A stretch of 64,000 bases of DNA from Oscillospiraceae bacterium (GTDB taxonomy: Bacteria > Bacillota > Clostridia > Oscillospirales > Ruminococcaceae), in the NCBI GenBank assembly GCA_017427265.1, contig JAFRTG010000021.1, forward strand, positions 310,001 through 374,000. Reading direction: 5' to 3'. The translations under genes were made by a program, and so were the position numbers. Below are positions 4,140 through 12,764 of the stretch, one piece after another (the stretch's first letter is position 1; each line of letters starts with the position of its first letter). The notes below the pieces were generated by a model that saw only the letters and a program-made list of their open reading frames with translations, did not search any database and was not told where the DNA came from.

Positions 4140-4171
4140 AATAAGGCACTGTTCAAGCAGCAGTGATGGAT

Positions 4172-4244
4172 GGAAGCTTAGCTCAGCTGGGAGAGCATCT
4201 GCCTTACAAGCAGAGGGTCACAGGTTCGAGCCCTGTAGTTTCCA
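4172..4244 (+). tRNA. tRNA-Val (TAC)
   Basis: 73 bases with a complete cloverleaf. The acceptor stem GGAAGCT pairs with AGTTTCC, including one G-U pair. The anticodon loop CTTACAA sits between TCTGC and GCAGA, and the T loop has GGTTCGAGCC. Discriminator A. The CCA end is not encoded, so it must be added by a nucleotidyltransferase. Confidence 0.95.
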
Positions 4245-4248
4245 TAGT

Positions 4249-4322
4249 GGCCTGGTAGTTCAGTTGGTTAGAACGCCGCCCTGTCACGGCGGAGGTCGTG
4301 GGTTCGAGTCCCATCCAGGTCG
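4249..4322 (+). tRNA. tRNA-Asp (GTC)
   Basis: 74 bases, four bases after tRNA-Val. Acceptor stem GGCCTGG/CCAGGTC with one G-U pair. The anticodon loop CTGTCAC is closed by CCGCC/GGCGG. Discriminator G, as is usual for aspartate. No encoded CCA. Confidence 0.95.
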
Positions 4323-4351
4323 TTCTGATGAATCAGAACCGGTTCATCTGT

Positions 4352-4424
4352 GCGGATTTAGCTCATCTGGTAGAGCGCCACCTTGCCAAGGTGGAGGTAG
4401 CGGGTTCGAGCCCCGTAATCCGCT
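4352..4424 (+). tRNA. tRNA-Gly (GCC)
   Basis: 73 bases. Acceptor stem GCGGATT/AATCCGC. The anticodon loop TTGCCAA is closed by CCACC/GGTGG. Discriminator T. No encoded CCA. Confidence 0.95.
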
Positions 4425-4430
4425 TTTCAC

Positions 4431-4501
4431 GGCGCGATAGCCAAGTGGTAAGGCAATGGTCTGCAACACCGTGATCACCAGTTCAAATCTGGTTCGCGCC
4501 T
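4431..4501 (+). tRNA. tRNA-Cys (GCA)
   Basis: 71 bases, six bases after tRNA-Gly. Acceptor stem GGCGCGA/TCGCGCC. Anticodon loop CTGCAAC. Discriminator T, the usual identity base for cysteine tRNA. It is the last tRNA of the cluster. Confidence 0.95.
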
Positions 4502-9078: not shown

Positions 9079-9107
9079 TTGCAATTCCGCCGGTTTTGGT
9101 GTATAAT
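9079..9107 (+). promoter_or_regulatory. Promoter of the flavodoxin/radical SAM pair
   Basis: TTGCAA (9079-9084), 17 bases, TATAAT (9102-9107), followed by a leader of about 85 bases. Confidence 0.8.
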
Positions 9108-9200: not shown

Positions 9201-9665
9201 ATGAGCAAAAAATTAGTCGCATTCTTTTCCGCGGGCGGCAGAACCGCCAAGGCTGCGCAGAAGCTCGCGGATGCAGCAGGAGCAGATCTCTACGAGATCA
9301 GGCCTGCCGTCCCCTATACCGGAGAGGATCTCAACTGGATGAACAAACAGTCACGCAGCAGCATCGAGATGCAGGATCACAGCTCGCGTCCGGCTGTTGC
9401 GGAACCTGATGCGGATATTGCTGCATATGACACGGTCTACGTCGGATTCCCGGTCTGGTGGTATATCGCCCCGACCGTCATCAACACGTTCCTTGAACGC
9501 TATGATTTTTCCGGAAAAAAGATCGTGCTCTTTGCCACATCCGGCGGCAGCGGATTCGGTCAGACCGCAGAGTATCTCCGGCCGAGCGCGCCGGGCGCTG
9601 AGATCATCGAGGGCAAGGTCAATCCGAAGGACAAGGATATGCAGGCGCTTGCGGCAATCTCCTGA
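9201..9665 (+). CDS. Flavodoxin-like protein
   Basis: A 154-residue FMN-binding electron carrier, the length of a short-chain flavodoxin. The phosphate loop is FFSAGGRTAKAAQKLAD near residues 9-25, in the place of the usual T/SxTGNT. FPVWWYIAPTVINTFLE (about 87-103) is the isoalloxazine-side segment typical of the flavodoxin_4 group. ATSGGSGFGQTAEYL follows. It lies 17 bases before a radical SAM gene and shares its promoter, so it may be the physiological reductant of that enzyme's iron-sulfur cluster; this is inference. Confidence 0.87.
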   Translation: MSKKLVAFFSAGGRTAKAAQKLADAAGADLYEIRPAVPYTGEDLNWMNKQSRSSIEMQDHSSRPAVAEPDADIAAYDTVYVGFPVWWYIAPTVINTFLERYDFSGKKIVLFATSGGSGFGQTAEYLRPSAPGAEIIEGKVNPKDKDMQALAAIS

Positions 9666-9682: not shown

Positions 9683-11143
9683 ATGCATTATTATGCGGAT
9701 TATAAACAGTATGTTGCCGAAACGCTCAGAGACAGCGTGCCGGTGATCCGGGCGGCAGAACGCGGTACGCTCTCGTTCACGCCCTATATCTCAAACCGCT
9801 GCAGCGCGGCCTGCCGGTTCTGCTCGGAAAAGCTGTACCGCGGCGGCATCGCCAGTGCGGATCTGACAGTCTGCAGCGGATACCGCGAAAAGCTCGCTGA
9901 GATTCTGCGCTCACAGCGCGGCCGGAAGATTTTTCTGTCTGTCTCCGGCATGGAGCCTTCGGAAAGCATCGGACAGCTTTCCCTTGTGCGCGAAGCCGTT
10001 CAGCAGGCCGAACAGAGCGGGTGCGTCTTTACCGAGCGCGTTATGTATTCCAATCTTTCCGGCTTTGCTAAGCATTGGGAACAGCTGACTGCGCTTGTCC
10101 GTTCGCTGAAGCTGACCAGAATCGAATGCTCCCGCCATCATTTTGACGATGCCGTCAATCAGCAGATCGTGCGGTTCCGGGACGGAGAGCACATCCGGCA
10201 GAACAGCGTATTCATCCGCACTGTGCAGAATCTGCTGCAAATCGTGCCGGTCACAATGGTGTGTGTGATGCAGAAAACAGGCGTTGCATCGCCGGAGGAT
10301 GTGCTGCCCTATCTGGAATTTGCGCGTCAGACCGGCGTCCGGCATGTTGTGTTCCGGGCACTGTCCATCTTCTCAGAACCGGCAGACGGCATTCAGATTG
10401 CGTCCTATATCACGGAAAACCGCGTGGAAATGCTGGATATGATCCGGGCGCTTCCGCAGGAGCATTTCCGGCTGCTGTCTGTGACAGAGGGCTATTACTA
10501 CTACTCCTTCCGGTATCAGTACCGCGATATGGAAGTGCTGTTTGAGATGTCTGACTACGATCAGATGCGCCGCGAGCATCACAGCGAACGGCAGCACAAG
10601 CTGATCTTTTACCCGAACGGGGAGCTGTATAAGGACTGGAACCGGAATCCCGACGGAAAGGTCTGTGATGACCCCGACACCGTTTTCAGAACGCTTGCAG
10701 AAATCGCAAAGGAGCTGACCGCTTCCGGAGAGGCCGCTGTCATCGGGAGCTTCGGCGCCCGGCTGACGGTTCCGCAGGTGCTGGATCATATGCCGAAGGA
10801 TCTTGACCTGTTCATGCAGAACGATATTGCGGCGATCCGCCGTGCAATCCGGATTCTGCGGAAGCACGGATTTTCCGTGTATTCATGGCAGGACCGCATT
10901 GACGAAAATGTGCCGGAAGAACTGCTGAAAGGGCGGTATTATATCCGCGGCATCCGTGATATACTGAATGTTGATCTCACCTATGAAATCGAAGGCATCG
11001 AATACGAAAAGCTCAGCGCCCATGCAGTGCATGCGGACGGAATCGGTACTTACGATAAAGAGGGGCAGATGCGGCTGCTCGAAGTATGCACGGAACGGCC
11101 GGATCTGACAGAACGGCTTGAAAAAATGCGGAACATAACCTGA
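9683..11143 (+). CDS. Radical SAM enzyme fused to a nucleotidyltransferase-like domain
   Basis: 486 residues in two parts. Residues about 30-330 are a radical SAM domain with CSAACRFC (Cys40, Cys44, Cys47). Residues about 350-470 look like a polymerase-beta type nucleotidyltransferase: IGSFGAR at 354-360, DLDLF with Asp373 and Asp375, and a third acidic strand LNVDLTY with Asp431. That supplies the GS loop and all three metal-binding acids of the superfamily, although the GS-to-DxD spacing (16 residues) is longer than the common 9-13. The radical SAM half contains a HHFDDAVNQQIVRFRDG segment like peptide- or metabolite-modifying members. I know no described enzyme of this architecture; the substrate is unknown. 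Co-transcribed with a flavodoxin; terminator immediately after. Confidence 0.75.
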   Translation: MHYYADYKQYVAETLRDSVPVIRAAERGTLSFTPYISNRCSAACRFCSEKLYRGGIASADLTVCSGYREKLAEILRSQRGRKIFLSVSGMEPSESIGQLSLVREAVQQAEQSGCVFTERVMYSNLSGFAKHWEQLTALVRSLKLTRIECSRHHFDDAVNQQIVRFRDGEHIRQNSVFIRTVQNLLQIVPVTMVCVMQKTGVASPEDVLPYLEFARQTGVRHVVFRALSIFSEPADGIQIASYITENRVEMLDMIRALPQEHFRLLSVTEGYYYYSFRYQYRDMEVLFEMSDYDQMRREHHSERQHKLIFYPNGELYKDWNRNPDGKVCDDPDTVFRTLAEIAKELTASGEAAVIGSFGARLTVPQVLDHMPKDLDLFMQNDIAAIRRAIRILRKHGFSVYSWQDRIDENVPEELLKGRYYIRGIRDILNVDLTYEIEGIEYEKLSAHAVHADGIGTYDKEGQMRLLEVCTERPDLTERLEKMRNIT

Positions 11144-11303: not shown

Positions 11304-11332
11304 TTGAAAAAACGGATAGAGTATGTTATAAT
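11304..11332 (+). promoter_or_regulatory. Promoter of the miaB-mutS-mutL cluster
   Basis: TTGAAA (11304-11309), 17 bases, TATAAT (11327-11332), about 50 bases before the miaB start. No strong terminator is visible until 26127, so this promoter may serve a very long transcript with internal promoters. Confidence 0.8.
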
Positions 11333-11384: not shown

Positions 11385-12764
11385 ATGGCAGAATCCGCTG
11401 CACAGATCAGAGAGGGCATCCGGGCGGTTCTGGAGACGTTCCCGCATACGCCGCGGGCACATGTCCAGAGCTTCGGCTGTCAGCTCAATTTCTGCGACGG
11501 TGAAAAATACAAGGGCATCCTGCAGGATCTCGGCTATGAGCTGACGGATATTCCGGAAGAGGCAGACGTCATCCTGTTCAATGCCTGTGCAGTCCGTGCA
11601 CATGCGGAATCCCGCGTGATCGGGCGGCTCGGTGCGCTGAAGGCGATCCGGGAAAAGAATCCGCGGCTGATCGTCGGTTTATGCGGCTGCATGGCCGAGG
11701 AGGAGGAGGTCCGCGCACTGCTGCGGAAATCCTATCCGTTTGTGAAGCTGGTGCTCGGCGCCGGTGCAATGGAGCGTCTGCCGGGAAGCCTGCTGTCTGT
11801 TTACCGCGGCGAAAAGCGCGCGGAGACGCTGGCATTTGCCGGTCTGCCGGACGAAGCGCTCCCGACTGTGCGCGATTCCGGTTTTCAGGCGAGCGTGCCG
11901 GTCATGTACGGCTGCAACAATTTCTGCACCTACTGCATTGTGCCGTATGTCCGCGGCAGAGAGCGCAGCCGGAAGCCGGAGGCAATCGAGCAGGAGGTGC
12001 GGCAGCTGATTGCACAGGGCTACAAGGAGATTCTGCTGCTCGGTCAGAACGTCAATTCCTACGGCCGCGGGCTCGATGAGGAGATCAACTTCCCGGCGCT
12101 GCTGCGGCGGCTCGATGCGATCGAGGGGGATTACTTCATCCGCTTTATGAGCTCACACCCGAAGGACGCGACGCCGGAGCTCATTGATGTGATGCTTGAG
12201 TCAAAGCATATCGAGTACCATCTGCATCTGCCGGTACAGTGCGGCAGCGACCGCGTGCTGCAGGAGATGAACCGGCGGTATACCGTGGAAAAATATCTGG
12301 AAACGGTGGATTATGCACGCGCAAAGGATCCGGATTTCGGATTTTCGAGTGACCTGATTGTCGGGTTCCCGACGGAAACGGATGCCGATTTTGAAGGCAC
12401 CATGCAGGTCATCGAGCGCGTGAAATACGACAATCTTTATACGTTTATCTACAGCCCGCGCAGCGGAACAAAGGCGGCGGAGATGCCGTTTGTCTCCACG
12501 CAGGAGCAGATTGCGGCGCGCATGAGCCGTCTGCTTGCGCGGCAGCGGGAAATTTCCGAGGAATTCAACAAGCGCTTCCTCGGAAAGCAGGTGCGGTTCC
12601 TTGCGGAAAAGCGCGATCCGGAAACCGGTCTGCTGCTCGGCAAGACGCGCCACGGACTGGTGCTGGAAGCGCCGGGTACGCAGGAGGACATCGGGCGGCT
12701 GTTGGATGTCACCGTGACCGGCGTAAAGAACTGGGCGCTTTCCGGCGAGATTCTGCGGGGGTGA
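11385..12764 (+). CDS. miaB: tRNA-2-methylthio-N6-isopentenyladenosine(37) synthase MiaB
   Basis: A 459-residue methylthiotransferase that adds the 2-methylthio group to i6A37 of tRNAs reading UNN codons, acting after MiaA (encoded at 21366). The order is an N-terminal UPF0004 domain with the three auxiliary-cluster cysteines (SFGCQLNFCDGEK, NACAVRAHAE, LCGCMAE), a radical SAM domain with YGCNNFCTYCIVPYVRGRERSR-type CxxxCxxC (near residue 175), and a C-terminal TRAM domain. The start ATG at 11385 has AAAGGAAG eight bases before; longer forms lack a ribosome site. First gene of the cluster, 6 bases before endonuclease V. Confidence 0.95.
   Translation: MAESAAQIREGIRAVLETFPHTPRAHVQSFGCQLNFCDGEKYKGILQDLGYELTDIPEEADVILFNACAVRAHAESRVIGRLGALKAIREKNPRLIVGLCGCMAEEEEVRALLRKSYPFVKLVLGAGAMERLPGSLLSVYRGEKRAETLAFAGLPDEALPTVRDSGFQASVPVMYGCNNFCTYCIVPYVRGRERSRKPEAIEQEVRQLIAQGYKEILLLGQNVNSYGRGLDEEINFPALLRRLDAIEGDYFIRFMSSHPKDATPELIDVMLESKHIEYHLHLPVQCGSDRVLQEMNRRYTVEKYLETVDYARAKDPDFGFSSDLIVGFPTETDADFEGTMQVIERVKYDNLYTFIYSPRSGTKAAEMPFVSTQEQIAARMSRLLARQREISEEFNKRFLGKQVRFLAEKRDPETGLLLGKTRHGLVLEAPGTQEDIGRLLDVTVTGVKNWALSGEILRG

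Follow-up and report, generated by a model that had tools for sequence, protein, structure and literature searches.

The question raised by this locus is whether a single polypeptide can join a radical SAM (rSAM) domain to a nucleotidyltransferase (NTase), and what such an enzyme would do. The window, by which we mean the whole 64,000-nucleotide stretch that was analysed, is part of contig C18 of an Oscillospiraceae genome of 3.82 Mb (99.3% complete), and its forward strand contains a frame of 486 aa without a single internal stop. A first-pass annotation had described this frame as a radical SAM enzyme fused to a polymerase-beta-type NTase domain and knew of no characterised protein with this pairing. 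We likewise found no description of a single enzyme that pairs the two in the open-access literature, so its absence is not firm. The intact CxxxCxxC motif of that annotation was confirmed in the translation as C40/C44/C47, and G355-S356, D373/D375 and D431 all lie where it had placed them. The gene and its immediate upstream region are laid out as follows:

9079..9107, forward strand: promoter-like site before the flavodoxin-fusion pair (consensus match only)
9201..9665, forward strand: flavodoxin (PF12682, E 3.8e-63), directly upstream of the fusion
9683..11143, forward strand: fused gene, MoaA-like radical SAM domain plus nucleotidyltransferase-like domain, 486 aa, with an 82% identical fused homologue (L002/L007)

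The fusion is real, conserved and rare. The homologue with both halves that the first-pass annotation had proposed to look for exists in fused as well as in split form, the fused one being an ORF of an Oscillospiraceae MAG from sheep omasum (L007, contig JAFWVK010000025.1). Both halves are under purifying selection: between the window and the MAG, dN/dS (NG86) is 0.109 in the rSAM half and 0.104 in the C-terminal half (C-half). Over the 21 linker codons near residues 322-342, identity is just 43%. These values describe two constrained domains held together by a loose linker, and since both halves are constrained and the fusion recurs in the MAG, it does not stem from a fault in a single assembly.

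On the evidence of sequence comparison, the N-terminal half is a MoaA-like radical SAM domain and thus a member of a known superfamily. Its features are:

9683..10657, forward strand: radical SAM half, approximately residues 1-325, GYYYY clade (Pfam, MoaA profile match, tree and alignment)
9800..9823, forward strand: CxxxCxxC, the [4Fe-4S]-SAM motif, Cys40/44/47 (invariant in the aligned rSAM rows)
10262..10264, forward strand: Cys194, a conserved non-cluster cysteine (alignment of two clades against MoaA/PqqE)
10490..10504, forward strand: residues 270-274, GYYYY of the clade (G270, Y272, Y273 and Y274 invariant in 9/9 rows)

The match of this half to PF04055 lies below the Pfam cut-off (E 0.0027, 18.4 bits against 29.5), whereas P0004, a member of the same clade, lies above it with 33.5 bits, and it is homology to P0004 that places the window protein in the PF04055 superfamily. 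A profile of four rSAM sequences also matches the MoaA structures 2fb2 (E 8e-5) and 1tv7 (E 1.5e-4). The CxxxCxxC motif is invariant in all 21 aligned rSAM rows, which comprise nine of the GYYYY clade, seven of a second clade, three MoaA and two PqqE (seven of the 28 tree rows, L018 among them, were left out of this alignment). Taken with the Pfam and MoaA matches, this bears out the radical SAM part of the first-pass annotation. The nine-row clade shares 26 invariant residues, including G270, Y272-Y274, R225, E288 and W319. Cys194 is present in 16/16 rows of the two clades and in 0/5 MoaA/PqqE rows, and is absent from the remoter relative L018; it may contribute to the radical reaction, possibly as a catalytic residue.

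In a maximum-likelihood tree of 28 rSAM cores, the sequences from the window, the MAG and Hymenobacter form one clade (support 100/98), and this NTase-linked clade sits inside the nine-row clade (99/99), whose other six rows (from phages and viral contigs and from two genomes of the window's genus) are without a C-half of this kind. The three MoaA rows group together (94/98), apart from the nine-row clade (99/99). The window protein shares with MoaA (GTP 3',8-cyclase) the rSAM core and the profile match to MoaA structures, but it lacks the C-terminal second-cluster Cys triad of the three MoaA rows, carries Cys194 and GYYYY and belongs to a separate branch of the tree. Identity with MoaA was rejected since the triad is missing and the protein falls outside the MoaA group. 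The Cys positions of the rSAM half also include no PqqE-like C-terminal set.

Remoter relatives of the rSAM half are found in several other gene contexts. Twelve tree rows fall neither in the nine-row clade nor among the MoaA, PqqE and QueE-like rows, and six of them adjoin a HIGH-type adenylyltransferase-like gene in the flanks as viewed (L008, L011, L018, L104, L107 and L119, several of them near copies; the calls are by Pfam, L119 just under the PF01467 cut-off, and by eye for L107). They belong to other clades, and their neighbours to another transferase superfamily, and may be taken as an analogy only and not as evidence of a common function. On two IMG/VR viral contigs (L104, 3403-6731; L107, 2122-5477) the rSAM gene lies within a viral NAD-salvage run in the order isochorismatase family (nicotinamidase-like), radical SAM, nicotinate phosphoribosyltransferase and NadD-like adenylyltransferase, as read from Pfam in L104 and by eye in L107. 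In the uncultured phages LR745206.1 (L011, 3137-5861) and LR756502.1 (L119, 4001-6810) the rSAM genes adjoin NadR-like genes, with adenylyltransferase and kinase-like domains, and PnuC-like genes (PF04973 in L119, by eye in L011). The relatives on L018 (1306-3394) and L008 (169-1568) adjoin cytidylyltransferase-like (PF01467) genes, and L018 has alongside a second rSAM-like gene, which scores under the PF04055 cut-off and resembles RlmN by eye. Within the window's own genus, L003 (777-3423), L004 and L005 (1468-2622) carry a cassette of three rSAM genes, one of which has an N-terminal part of ~330 aa with no Pfam match at E 0.1 and no PDB match better than E 0.24; the small and larger rSAM pair of this cassette is also found in Dulem virus 40 (L010) and in L013. 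A further relative, on a plasmid of Prevotella sp. E2-28 (L118, 226-7353), lies near an annotated ADP-ribosylglycohydrolase, NUDIX, DUF1810 and a second rSAM gene, which suggests an NAD/ADP-ribose theme for that stretch.

The identity of the C-half is the harder part of the question. Its proposed features are:

10700..11140, forward strand: nucleotidyltransferase-like half, residues 340-486 (stand-alone homologue P0002 in Hymenobacter; profile comparison)
10745..10750, forward strand: G355-S356, proposed GS loop (GT in Hymenobacter; homologue alignment)
10799..10807, forward strand: D373-L-D375, proposed metal-binding DxD (DLD in both fusions, DCD in Hymenobacter)
10973..10975, forward strand: D431, proposed third catalytic acid (VDLTYE; LDCAYE in Hymenobacter)

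The three acids were not accepted by themselves as proof of an NTase, as a loose form of their pattern (G[GST]...DxD/E...D/E) is too frequent: when residues 337-486 were shuffled 5000 times it appeared in 519 of the products, and of the 129 stop-to-stop window frames of at least 150 aa, 20 contain it. A tight pattern, met in 1/5000 shuffles, was not counted because it was written after both sequences were known. What raises the motif above chance is that a separately encoded homologue in a different phylum keeps it in register. The best non-fused match to the fusion protein is found on plasmid pHsw1 of Hymenobacter swuensis DY53 (Bacteroidota), where an rSAM protein of 367 aa (34% identity to query residues 27-362, E 2e-38) is followed by a C-half protein, P0002. 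The two genes, HSW_RS01030 and HSW_RS01025, are both annotated 'hypothetical protein' and are adjacent with a 4 bp overlap, the rSAM gene being first; both parts are thus present as in the window protein, which differs in being one gene rather than two. P0002 is identical to the window C-half at 30/122 positions (25%, E 9e-13 as a single comparison) and has G-T-F for G-S-F, D-C-D for D-L-D and L-D-C-A-Y-E for V-D-L-T-Y-E, all in register. In a plasmid-wide search with the C-half alone the P0002 gene was the sole match, at E 0.04, and because this value is so modest the match would lack significance if it did not lie beside the rSAM gene. Loss of the three Asp residues in homologues, named in the first-pass annotation as a point that would speak against an NTase, was looked for: the G[ST] loop, the DxD and the third acid are kept in 2/2 C-half homologues, one of them a close copy (the three sequences compared being the window, L007 and P0002, with L007 the close copy and P0002 the one independent homologue). 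The split counterpart suggests, from the adjacency and overlap of its genes, that the two parts act in one process. Overall, the pairing of rSAM and NTase-like parts looks real and functional.

Family searches place the C-half less firmly. The only NTase family that hmmscan reports for the window protein is PF09970 (DUF2204, 'Nucleotidyl transferase of unknown function'), at residues 335-384 with E 0.042 and 13.9 bits, under the cut-off of 20.3, so that the profile search proposed in the first-pass annotation returned an NTase family, but one below threshold. No NTase family in Pfam, NCBIfam or PHROGs matches the C-half above cut-off, NCBIfam and PHROGs name none for it, PF14907 is unreported by hmmscan for the window protein, PDB sequences gave only chance-level matches to the C-half, and P0002 matched none of the curated NTase families in family profile searches. 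A search for defence systems with PADLOC gave a single weak ThsB match (E 0.0052, residues 379-413), and a defence role was rejected as this match is local.

The C-half profile was then compared by hhalign with 31 templates consisting of NTase profiles, single members and decoys. The template members were drawn from genomes (4/5 loci for PF09970, with the repeat-like L042 dropped; 7/9 for PF08843; 10/11 for PF14907, with L063 run alone; 12 of 30 for PF01909), and there were 17 decoys, among which the miaB entry is off frame and of no value. The best of the 31 templates was PF14907 (NTP_transf_5), with a score of 27.3 and a probability of 14%; its DxD falls on the DxD of the window protein and the following HGF / LGY stretch is aligned, although the window GS loop is matched to a KG that is one residue out of step. 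PF09970 scored 23.8 (probability 7%), again with DxD on DxD, against 23.2 for the top decoy, GNAT. PF01909 reached a probability of ~1% with both GS and DxD in register. Ten single NTase-family members scored at most 21.8, several of them out of register, and L063 alone (21.9, with 0/150 shuffles as high) was left uncounted because its alignment is out of register there, at the motif itself. Query profiles with shuffled columns never reached the PF14907 rerun score of 24.3 (0/150) and rarely those of PF09970 (1/150) or PF01909 (3/150), whereas 63/150 were as high as AbiEii (PF08843), whose alignment lies away from the motif. The AbiEii-type resemblance raised by the first-pass annotation is therefore without signal. 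Its wider assignment to the polymerase-beta-type NTases is supported in part, by the motif kept in two homologues and by the weak profile matches to PF14907, PF09970 and PF01909, with no family above cut-off. Scores, DxD register and column shuffles together favour, short of proof, an NTase domain like those of PF14907/PF09970 rather than one of the AbiEii type, and the C-half probably belongs to the known NTase superfamily.

The fusion is a rare pairing of two known superfamilies. Among 61 relatives it is present in two, the window's own genome (G000) and G022, whose copy lies on the MAG contig described above, and G002 and G003 have the radical SAM part only. The same two are found among 396 genomes of the family sample, where a third match is radical SAM only, and among 30 genomes of the genus; in the overlapping samples of the order (295) and phylum (398) it is found only in G000, with one further radical SAM-only match in the phylum. 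A further 27 weak C-half places appeared in the order and phylum samples, and the 11 that were viewed are all unrelated by eye. The 72,556 plasmid records gave three matches at E ≤0.01, Hymenobacter and two from Embleya (the latter via the rSAM half), and a plasmid search with P0002 and P0003 (the Hymenobacter rSAM protein) gave no further rSAM/C-half pair. Four matches among 50,697 phage records involve the rSAM half only, and the C-half alone had none in these records. Viral contigs scanned with P0001, A2, P0002 and P0003 gave no homologues, and with A3 four radical SAM-only loci; the scan of genome contigs, which reaches close relatives only, returned L007.

The genes around the fusion offer one possible helper. 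The fusion ATG lies 17 nt past the flavodoxin stop, with a Shine-Dalgarno-like AAGAGG 6 nt before it, and the promoter-like site upstream of the pair is one of three found in the region against 1.5 expected by consensus matching. In both genomes that carry the fusion, a flavodoxin gene precedes it on the same strand; in the window the two are immediate neighbours, in L007 they are separated by one MFS-like gene, and the 16 annotated features viewed near the Hymenobacter pair include no flavodoxin. Since flavodoxin relatives are common across the genus in genomes that lack the fusion (matches at E ≤1e-30, paralogues included, in 24/30 genomes, with varied neighbours at the 13 loci viewed), the flavodoxin is a possible electron donor and not a dedicated partner. 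The downstream miaB (named by eye; ATG at 11385) was rejected as a partner, as it has its own promoter-like site (11304-11332) and the gene that follows the fusion in L007 is a different one. No further gene common to the window, L007 and Hymenobacter neighbourhoods was recognised by eye. Elsewhere in the window, a cluster of four tRNA genes is found at 4171-4501: Val(tac), Asp(gtc), Gly(gcc) and Cys(gca).

We favour, with a probability of about 0.5, a two-domain enzyme in which the rSAM domain would modify a small molecule or nucleotide and the NTase domain would nucleotidylate the product or prime the substrate. The upstream flavodoxin would perhaps reduce the rSAM domain, which would generate a 5'-deoxyadenosyl radical and modify a small, possibly nucleotide-like, substrate; the NTase domain would transfer NMP from an NTP to the rSAM product, or prime the substrate before the radical step. 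The kinship with MoaA favours a nucleotide-like substrate, as do, more distantly, the genes that flank the remote relatives. That both reactions are coupled on one substrate, as the first-pass annotation had proposed, is plausible. The C-half might instead have kept the NTase fold without transferase activity and serve the rSAM domain as a nucleotide- or substrate-binding module. With three sequences and weak profile similarity to NTase families such a module is conceivable; against it, the three putative metal acids and the G[ST] persist between two phyla at 25% identity and this half is under purifying selection, and we consider it unlikely. A more basic doubt is that the C-half is an unrelated small domain whose acids are coincidental, as the frequency of the loose pattern in shuffles and window frames, the lack of any database match above cut-off (for P0002 also) and the near-equal GNAT decoy would allow. 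Against this, the three NTase profiles put DxD on DxD at scores that shuffles rarely reach and the acids are kept in Hymenobacter, so that coincidence, too, seems improbable.

A role in peptide (RiPP) tailoring would have the rSAM half modify a precursor that the NTase-like half modifies further, as PsmN may do. The starting point for it is that the best profile neighbour of the C-half is PF14907, the family to which we take PsmN to belong. In the passage of the source that concerns it, PsmN is an annotated nucleotidyltransferase of a lasso peptide cluster and is thought to help add a hexose (PMC9266682). The MFS-like gene upstream of the fusion in L007 encodes a transporter-like protein and was noted in the same connection. 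This role is nonetheless very unlikely, as the rSAM half has no PqqE-like C-terminal Cys set and inspection by eye revealed no adjacent precursor or peptidase gene, either in the window or in Hymenobacter.

Returning to the two-domain enzyme, its most far-reaching form would be the first recognised radical SAM-nucleotidyltransferase enzyme, in which the rSAM domain builds an unusual nucleotide-like product that the NTase domain converts into a dinucleotide-type cofactor or an NMP-capped metabolite. We hold this to be quite doubtful; it would parallel, by analogy, the remote rSAM relatives of phages and bacteria whose neighbours are NadR- or NadD-like adenylyltransferases. Radical SAM enzymes and NTases are both large superfamilies, and their pairing in one enzyme is apparently undescribed. 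The fused and split forms provide a small, testable system, and if it is true that both domains work on one molecule, this would represent a new biosynthetic logic.
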